From contig JAFTZJ010000066.1 of NCBI GenBank assembly GCA_017461045.1, positions 1 to 37,687 of the forward strand: 37,687 nt of DNA, in the 5' to 3' direction. This DNA comes from Lachnospiraceae bacterium (GTDB taxonomy: Bacteria > Bacillota > Clostridia > Lachnospirales > Lachnospiraceae). How positions within the stretch are numbered: position 1 is the first letter of the stretch; every line of letters starts with the position of its first letter. The notes beneath the pieces were generated by a model. It was not told the DNA's origin. It saw only the letters and a program-made list of their open reading frames with translations, and did no database searches. Shown here piece by piece: positions 29,442-30,520 of the stretch. Made by a program: the position numbers and the translations under genes.

Positions 29442-29903
29442 ATGAAAATACGGATTTTATGTGTGGGAAAAATAAAAGAAGACTTCTATCGGAAGAAACT
29501 AGAGGAGTATTCGAAGCAGATTAATAAGCAGTATACCTTTGAAATCATAGAAGTGGAAGATGAAAAGACCCAGGAACAACTTAGCGACGTAGAACGGGAT
29601 AAGATTCTAAGAATTGAAGGAGAACGATTGTTAAAATATCTGAAACAGGAAACCGGAGATTACGTAGTTGCACTATGCATAAATGGTCGAAAATATACAA
29701 CTGCAGAATGGACAGAGGTTCTGAAAAAAAGAATTCTGCAACAGGAGTATAGACAGGTTACTTATGTCATTGGAGGTTCTTTGGGATTGGATGCATCTGT
29801 AGTAAAGCTGGCTGATACGAAGCTTAGTTTTTCGGATTTAACATTTCCGCATCAATTAATGCGGGTGATTTTGGCAGAACAGATATTAACCTGTAGCATC
29901 TAG
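29442..29903 (+). CDS. RlmH-family SPOUT methyltransferase lacking the conserved C-terminal tail
   Basis: Related to RlmH, which methylates pseudouridine 1915 of 23S rRNA at N3. The start MKIRILCVGKIKEDFYRKKLEEY, shortened here to its opening MKIRILCVGKIKE, and the SAM-binding loop YVIGGSLGL (GGSLGL at 111-116) are intact, as is LSFSDLTFPHQLMR (128-141). The family then normally continues EQIYRAxRIxxxxPYHK; here it reads EQILTCSI and stops at 153 aa. I looked in the other two frames past the stop and found no PYHK, so this is not a simple frameshift. The convergent gene 44 bases away is a second RlmH relative with the opposite loss. It could be an active partner of that protein, a repurposed enzyme, or decaying. 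I withhold the name rlmH because the tail is considered part of the active site. Confidence 0.85.
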   Translation: MKIRILCVGKIKEDFYRKKLEEYSKQINKQYTFEIIEVEDEKTQEQLSDVERDKILRIEGERLLKYLKQETGDYVVALCINGRKYTTAEWTEVLKKRILQQEYRQVTYVIGGSLGLDASVVKLADTKLSFSDLTFPHQLMRVILAEQILTCSI

Positions 29904-29933
29904 CTGTAAAAAGAGAAAATGTAATTACAGAAA

Positions 29934-29949
29934 AATCCGAAAACGGATT
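29934..29949. terminator. Short hairpin between the convergent RlmH-like genes
   Basis: AATCCG-AAAA-CGGATT is a perfect 6-bp stem. Read on the - strand it is followed by a T-rich stretch (TTTTCTG), so it probably serves the - strand gene, whose stop codon lies partly inside the hairpin. On the + strand it is followed by ATTTG and could act weakly there too. Confidence 0.5.
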
Positions 29950-30385
29950 ATTTGTGATAAGGCTGGTTGTTTAAAATGCGATAGCCACGATAGATTTGCT
30001 CGAAGAGTACCACCCCGGTTAATCCGATGGATAAATCCATAGAGGACAGGGAGAGGGAGTGTATGGACGGTAAATCAAGCTCCTGTGTAGTGGTTACATT
30101 TTCATAACCGATGAAAATATAAATCGTAGAGATTCCCTGTAAACCGATTTGGTTAATGTTCGAAGCAAGTACTTCGGAACTTGGAGTATCCTTGCCGGGT
30201 ACTACGGAAACCAAACAGCTGTGTTCGGAGTTTTTGATTTTGGTAAGCAGGTCGTTCAGTTTGGATGCCGGTTGTAAATGATAGCTTGTTTTACAATAAG
30301 CCCCCAGCCGTTTGGTATATTCCAGCATGGCCTGTTCGTCGTTTTTATTCAATTTCTTAGTGTTCAAATATACAAAATAATTCAT
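29948..30385 (-). CDS. RlmH-like protein with degenerate SAM site and intact C-terminal tail
   Basis: A 145-aa protein that aligns with RlmH end to end but with unusual changes. Its opening (MNYFVYLNTKKLNKND, then EYTKRLGAYCKTSYH) matches the RlmH N-terminal strand and helix. The SAM loop that should read VIGGSLGL is FIGYENV (91-97), and the region that should read SFSxMTFPHQLMR is LSSMDLSIGLTG. In contrast, the C-terminus EQIYRGYRILNNQPYHK is canonical. It is thus the mirror image of the neighbour at 29442. The start codon follows AGGAAA on the - strand. The tRNA-Arg promoter upstream could read into it. A non-catalytic subunit, an RNA-binding relative or a remnant are all possible; it is not annotated as an enzyme. 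Confidence 0.75.
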   Translation of the reverse strand: MNYFVYLNTKKLNKNDEQAMLEYTKRLGAYCKTSYHLQPASKLNDLLTKIKNSEHSCLVSVVPGKDTPSSEVLASNINQIGLQGISTIYIFIGYENVTTTQELDLPSIHSLSLSSMDLSIGLTGVVLFEQIYRGYRILNNQPYHK

Positions 30386-30438
30386 AGTATTTTCCTAATA
30401 TCGTCTTTCGAATATATTCTGTTTTTAAAAAAGAAAAA

Positions 30439-30510
30439 TGCATCAGATAGGAATCGAACCTACGCACCTGGCTCCGGAGGCCAGTGCTCTATCCACTGAG
30501 CTACTGATGC
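30439..30510 (-). tRNA. tRNA-Arg (anticodon CCG)
   Basis: Read on the - strand, acceptor GCATCAG pairs with CTGATGC, the D arm is GCTC-AGTGGATA-GAGC, the anticodon arm CTGGC-CTCCGGA-GCCAG carries CCG, the variable loop has 4 bases and the T arm is GTAGG-TTCGATT-CCTAT. Discriminator A; CCA is not encoded. It is 72 bases long and is followed by a T-rich stretch (TTTTTCTTTTTT) that can end transcription. Confidence 0.95.
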
Positions 30511-30520
30511 ATCAGTTGGT

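Follow-up and report, generated by a model that had tools for sequence, protein, structure and literature searches.

The methyltransferase RlmH, also known as YbeA or OrfX (PF02590, COG1576; E. coli, S. aureus, B. subtilis), acts on N3 of pseudouridine 1915 in 23S rRNA. In the crystal structure of the E. coli enzyme the SAM pocket is contributed by one subunit, and R25, R26, R142 and R154 together with the tail come from the other; the second SAM site is nearly empty and fills only near 1 mM (PMC5430550). Mutants in E138, Y152, H153 and R154 are inactive, among them all three single mutants of the tail (Y152, H153, R154), and the inactive proteins retain ribosome binding and are inhibitory (PMC5430550). 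The 3' end of rlmH is also the place where SCCmec and Enterococcus cassette chromosome elements with their large serine recombinases CcrAB are reported (PMC6222049). Nearly all SPOUT proteins are described as homodimers in the accessible portion of a review of the group, which does not mention the word 'heterodimer'. Engineered NHR heterodimers are reported to show that a single working subunit is enough for a SPOUT dimer to methylate (PMC4409310), and Ymr310c was suggested as a possible inactive subunit in a survey of 2007 (PMC1829167). A literature search, with subscription papers and preprints largely outside its scope, returned no report of a two-gene RlmH and no natural SPOUT pair with such a division between subunits.

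Here we describe a locus in a genome of the Lachnospiraceae in which the two halves of this composite site appear to be distributed over two genes. The window, by which we mean the whole stretch of DNA analysed (37,687 nucleotides of contig JAFTZJ010000066.1), contains the convergent genes rlmH-A and rlmH-B (A and B in the following), whose stop codons lie 44 bp apart (Table 1). A sequence-only reading had reported convergent RlmH paralogs with complementary losses at this place, and the open reading frames, motifs and ends are exactly as it described them. None of the frames just 3' of A encodes a tail for it, and the B protein is devoid of a PHQ motif. Because the same convergent pair is present in seven of eight genomes of the genus (own included), assembly error or chance can be excluded. 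Judged from their sequences, A and B are very probably the subunits of an obligate heterodimeric RlmH. Compared with the canonical enzyme, the fold, the family and, over A and B together, the composite-site residues are the same, but two genes stand in place of one and each protein is without half of the site.

Table 1. Features of the rlmH-A/rlmH-B locus in the window (positions are those of the whole stretch).
Feature	Position	Strand	Remarks
rlmH-A, putative SAM-binding RlmH subunit without tail	29442..29903	+	153 aa; PF02590 137.2 bits, profile positions 1-141 of 154
SAM loop GGSLGL of A	29772..29789	+	corresponds to the E. coli 103GGPEG107 region
TFPHQLMR of A	29841..29864	+	corresponds to the E. 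coli H129 region
Truncated end of A, EQILTCSI* (protein ends AEQILTCSI*)	29877..29903	+	Y152-H153-R/K154 tail missing
rlmH-B, putative RlmH subunit without SAM site, candidate tail donor	29948..30385	-	145 aa; PF02590 58.3 bits, model 3-154
Predicted catalytic tail of B, EQIYRGYRILNNQPYHK*	29951..30001	-	
FIGYENV of B	30095..30115	-	degenerate SAM-loop position
EYTKRL of B	30305..30322	-	corresponds to E. coli R25/R26, RNA-facing charges of the tail-giving subunit
tRNA-Arg(CCG)	30438-30511	-	just upstream of B, same strand

Both proteins score above the Pfam cut-off of PF02590 (27 bits) and below that of the best NCBIfam RlmH equivalog model (172 bits; A 160.8, B 60.9). Single-chain AlphaFold2 models reach a pLDDT of 90.1 and a pTM of 0.86 for A, and 83.6 and 0.79 for B. 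All of the first 15 ranks of a Foldseek search with the B model are occupied by RlmH-family chains, and A aligns by sequence to 1to0 and 4fak across 149 residues, so that an RlmH-type SPOUT fold is predicted for both, for B by Foldseek and for A by the sequence match together with a confident model. Neither chain combines SAM loop, PH motif and YH(R/K) tail: loop and PH motif are present in A only, the tail in B only.

The distribution of individual residues was compared among 52 canonical RlmH, 29 A and 29 B proteins in E. coli numbering, with the B of G770 left out and that of G546 counted. G103, G104 and G107 are retained in 29, 28 and 29 of the 29 A proteins and in 15, 0 and 1 of the 29 B proteins, and H129 is present in every A (29/29) and in no B (0/29). 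Positions 25, 26 and 142, counted as K or R, are kept in 17, 12 and 10 of the A proteins and in all 29 B proteins, which without exception have K at position 25 and R26. Likewise, Y152 and H153 are found in 29/29 B and 0/29 A, and the R154 position is occupied by K in 29/29 B, the two apparent matches in A being end residues that the aligner put there. E138 is kept on both sides (28/29 A, as E or D; 29/29 B). Of the three charges named for the SAM subunit in E. coli, K42 is present in 21/29 A and 7/29 B, and K11 and R43 have no conserved counterpart in the canonical sequences used; the comparison on this side covers K42 only. Of the 52 columns that are conserved among the canonical RlmH, 27 are retained (80% threshold) in A only, 15 in B only, one in both and nine in neither; retention in A and B is anticorrelated (Spearman -0.69), with columns that are non-independent and a p-value that serves as a guide only. 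As far as alignments can tell, A and B have lost complementary parts, in agreement with the way the E. coli structure assigns residues to the two subunits (PMC5430550), and A and B together form one full predicted active site. The complete set of active-site residues is present in the two proteins taken together, the exception being E138 in G770. In this genome (L161, L157) the B protein has K at this essential position and the A protein has D; the pair may be decaying or re-wired.

In the heterodimer that we propose, A would supply the knotted SAM pocket (GGSLGL, PHQ), and B would keep the SPOUT fold and give the RNA-facing R25/R26 and the E138-R142-Y152-H153-R/K154 tail to the active site of A. 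Such an A:B dimer would have one composite active site, compared with two equivalent, half-used ones in the homodimer, and A2 is predicted to bind SAM without catalysis, B2 to do neither. We infer that A and B pair physically and that the pair methylates pseudouridine 1915. A SAM subunit that depends on a partner for its activity, as A appears to be from sequence only, is also part of TRM6-TRM61 and METTL3-METTL14, which are described as methyltransferase heterodimers in which one of the subunits lacks SAM binding. Unlike the SPOUT proteins A and B, these are Rossmann-fold enzymes. The NHR heterodimers, on the other hand, are laboratory-made and not a natural gene pair.

A search with PF02590 in the window's genome matches A and B only; as this genome is only 67.5% complete, the absence of a third RlmH rests on its relatives. 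Exactly two PF02590 matches, convergent and with match edges 15-69 bp apart, are present in seven of the eight genomes of the genus (own included), and G002 (99% complete) and G006 (98%) possess the A/B pair and no other RlmH. The remaining member, G004, has no PF02590 match, and neither A nor B. In a sample of 397 genomes of the family, 363 have a PF02590 match and 14 have two, of which 12 are true pairs; the other two (G102, G261) represent a canonical gene plus, or lying across, contig-edge fragments. Genus and family sample together comprise 17 pairs in 11 of 334 genera, and in all 17 the A protein stops a few residues at most from the E138 position, and B ends in YHK and has no SAM loop. 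A class sample of 243 genomes added pairs in G427, G463, G496, G528, G594, G603 and G473, and a tandem A/B pair was found in L140 (Clostridiales bacterium MAG21). Five of six genomes in the family of G463 contain both A and B, the sixth only B, at a contig edge. A strict B profile (E <= 1e-43), which overlooks diverged B (for example in G594 and G194), detected B in 7 of 391 class genomes and, among 299 genomes of the phylum, in the window's own genome only. In all, 29 A/B pairs from eight families and one unplaced record were translated (17 in the window's family, 12 outside), and two extra B are without a visible A (G546, contig edge; L141, a 4.8-kb contig). A and B elsewhere range from tandem neighbours to a distance of up to 46 kb, or lie on separate contigs.

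Most pairs were spotted through two matches per genome, and the link between tail loss and B therefore rests on controls. All 33 of 33 class genomes with a single weak match extend to the end of the family model, and all 150 places among the matches listed in the family survey reach PF02590 model position 154. Three of the 150 places listed in the class survey end early: two of them, in G603 and G473, belong to genomes with B, and the third, in G554, runs into the end of a contig. Every tail-less A examined is accompanied by B. Several candidate pairs were rejected: G493, G590, G523 and G627 have a canonical gene plus fragments, G517 a single canonical gene with a frame break, and G070 and G361 edge fragments, and the only gene of G273 is full-length but divergent. 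L142, which had been retrieved for its relation to B, proved to be a canonical RlmH, and a B-only profile at a loose threshold was useless, canonical RlmH reaching 140.6 bits against it. Among the matches listed for known plasmids and for phages, those to B are of canonical length or annotated as rlmH, with <=40% identity in both cases, and a database search of viral contigs gave no match to B. The 1.5-Mb single-contig genome of G594 (L089, L101) contains a very diverged tandem A-B with unsure tree placement, its A with GGSEGV and TYPHQ and its B with a full tail. Two relatives of G496 in family f23 show a different condition: G474 (L090) has an 81-residue B-like remnant only and no A, and G535 (L091) has no convincing RlmH, as if A and B had decayed jointly.

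The sequence-only reading had itself offered the alternative that one or both genes are decaying copies and that a normal rlmH resides elsewhere; such a gene would have been missed in a draft genome. The low completeness of the window's genome and the motifs missing from both proteins would fit such a decay, but genus members that are 98-99% complete have only the A/B pair, the retained residues are complementary and not random, and selection has acted on A and B alike. Values of dN/dS (NG86) for close pairs are 0.154, 0.157 and 0.129 for A and 0.177, 0.112 and 0.184 for B, and 0.109 for the B of G603 against that of G473, the calculation being restricted to close pairs with dS saturated in wider comparisons. 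The genus survey and these values (0.11-0.18) largely refute the alternative, which we consider very improbable. The heterodimer suggested by the same reading gains support from the absence of a third, canonical RlmH in the window's genome and in the seven pair-bearing genomes of the genus, from the co-occurrence of A and B in 17 pairs within the family and 12 outside, and from purifying selection on both genes. It is also conceivable that the two proteins have separate roles, A being a SAM-dependent enzyme that acts on a different target or an RlmH that needs no tail, and B an RNA-binding factor or a regulator that competes for helix 69. The SAM site of A and, in the model, its fold are intact, B retains the ribosome-facing charges, and the binding and inhibition by inactive E. 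coli mutants (PMC5430550) would provide a precedent. Nevertheless, B keeps the catalytic Y152, H153 and R142, beyond what binding would demand, in 29/29 counted, each tail-less A examined comes with a B, and not one of the E. coli tail mutants is active (PMC5430550), so that we regard separate roles as unlikely. The observations that speak against the obligate heterodimer are K and D at the E138 position of the G770 pair, the SAM-subunit charges K11 and R43 without a conserved counterpart, the B of G546 (contig edge) for which no A was found, and G004 with neither gene.

Two genomes outside the window's family point to the way in which the tail of a resident RlmH can be lost. The A of G603 is without PYHK and that of G473 without YHK only. 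A large serine recombinase of 704 aa (PF00239, PF07508, PF13408) begins 89 bp past A in G603 and is followed by HsdR, HsdM and HsdS domains and then a tyrosine integrase domain, with B 14 kb from A. An 18-base inverted arm is present at both element ends, ~15.9 kb apart, and beyond the far arm lies an in-frame G-E-P-Y-H-K-stop, the displaced end of rlmH, which places B within the element. By this arrangement, the tail in G603 is cut off by a putative serine-recombinase element of ~15.9 kb that inserted in rlmH with B aboard. The G603 element resembles SCC in the large serine recombinase adjoining rlmH (a comparison by Pfam domains only), in a site in the last rlmH codons and in type I restriction-modification genes. 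It differs in that the 3' end of rlmH is not preserved, the tail codons being displaced to the far end (GEPYHK), and in carrying a separate tail-giving RlmH. In G473, a member of another family, the arm of the G603 element recurs after A, and a related one lies past B. An apparent IS200/IS605-type insert, identified by eye, covers the far junction of G473, and past it comes the gene that lies 3' of rlmH in the relatives L107 and L109. The B genes of G603 and G473 share 92.4% DNA identity over 460 bp, compared with 67-69% in the A regions, and B is patchy in both families (1/22 genomes in that of G603 with the strict profile, 1/6 in that of G473). In G448, from the family of G603, L103 1501-3474 comprises a canonical rlmH intact to GEPYHR and, directly after it, an arm-like stretch and then a large serine recombinase that is 70% identical to that of G603 over 474 aa, and B is absent from G448; this one genome appears to harbour the same kind of element with the tail kept in cis and without a tail donor. 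In G427 the idea that a large element separates A from B was rejected, the 46 kb consisting of ordinary-looking chromosomal genes (named by eye), and no element was seen between A and B in G723 or in the remaining pair lineages. In G523 (L098), G493 (L099) and G590 (L100) the 3' end of rlmH is present in additional copies away from the full gene, as expected if other elements integrate at the end of rlmH in Clostridia.

The phylogenies bear on how often such pairs arose. On a tree of 23 A and 52 canonical RlmH, with tail columns excluded, tail loss needs six state changes, three of which are forced by the starred branches alone; monophyly of A is rejected (AU p 0.0026), and the A of G603, G473 and G496 are nested among the canonical RlmH of their own families. 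According to these trees, the tail of the resident RlmH was apparently lost on several separate occasions. The B sequences lie together on one side of a branch whose SH-aLRT is 100 in a quick tree of 101 rows and whose support is 100/99 in a careful tree with five long rows removed; B thus looks like one clade and one gene family. Of the earlier proposal that one homodimeric enzyme was split into two genes, the two complementary genes stand, but a single split origin does not, given the repeated tail losses in A and a B that is seemingly one family. A heterodimer whose B came instead from several local duplications of rlmH, lineage by lineage and not by one origin and transfer, is possible, if rather doubtful: A and B are tandem neighbours in several genomes, and a constraint that groups the B of family f1 with the canonical RlmH of f1 is not rejected at the 5% level (AU p 0.0598), but the B branch is present in all of the 200 bootstrap trees, and the B of G603 and G473, from different families, are much closer to each other than their A regions. 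A scan of upstream-gene motifs for the ancestral locus in canonical family members was uninformative. We give an even chance to the possibility that B is a mobile tail donor, i.e. that a recombinase element removes the host's tail and supplies an RlmH without SAM site in trans, and that homodimers became obligate heterodimers in this way several times, the window's lineage included. Elements with serine recombinases would integrate within the last rlmH codons, the host would keep m3Psi1915 only as A:B and so depend on the element's gene, and the element would decay later while the A/B pair stays fixed. We infer an arrival of B on a mobile element in the other lineages too.

The tRNA-Arg(CCG) gene next to B recurs within the window's family. 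It lies within ~150 bp upstream of B in 11 of the 17 family pairs (G000, G001, G002, G003, G005, G007, G340, G194, G265, G325 and G168), ~0.9 kb from B in G006 and 0.8 kb away on the opposite strand in G189, and was not found in the stretches examined around the B of G137, G249, G047 and G077. It may mark the entry site of B in this family or reflect co-transcription with B.

If our reading is correct, A and B represent a composite active site that nature has divided between two genes, exactly along the line between the subunits in the crystal structure of E. coli RlmH, and would provide a ready experiment on the question why just one of the two sites is in use in RlmH. The elements of G603 and G473 suggest a new use of an essential-type host gene, in which the catalytic end is cut off and supplied in trans, a strategy that would make the host dependent on the element. 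Obligate heterodimers could then arise through the acquisition of a partner, and not by duplication alone.
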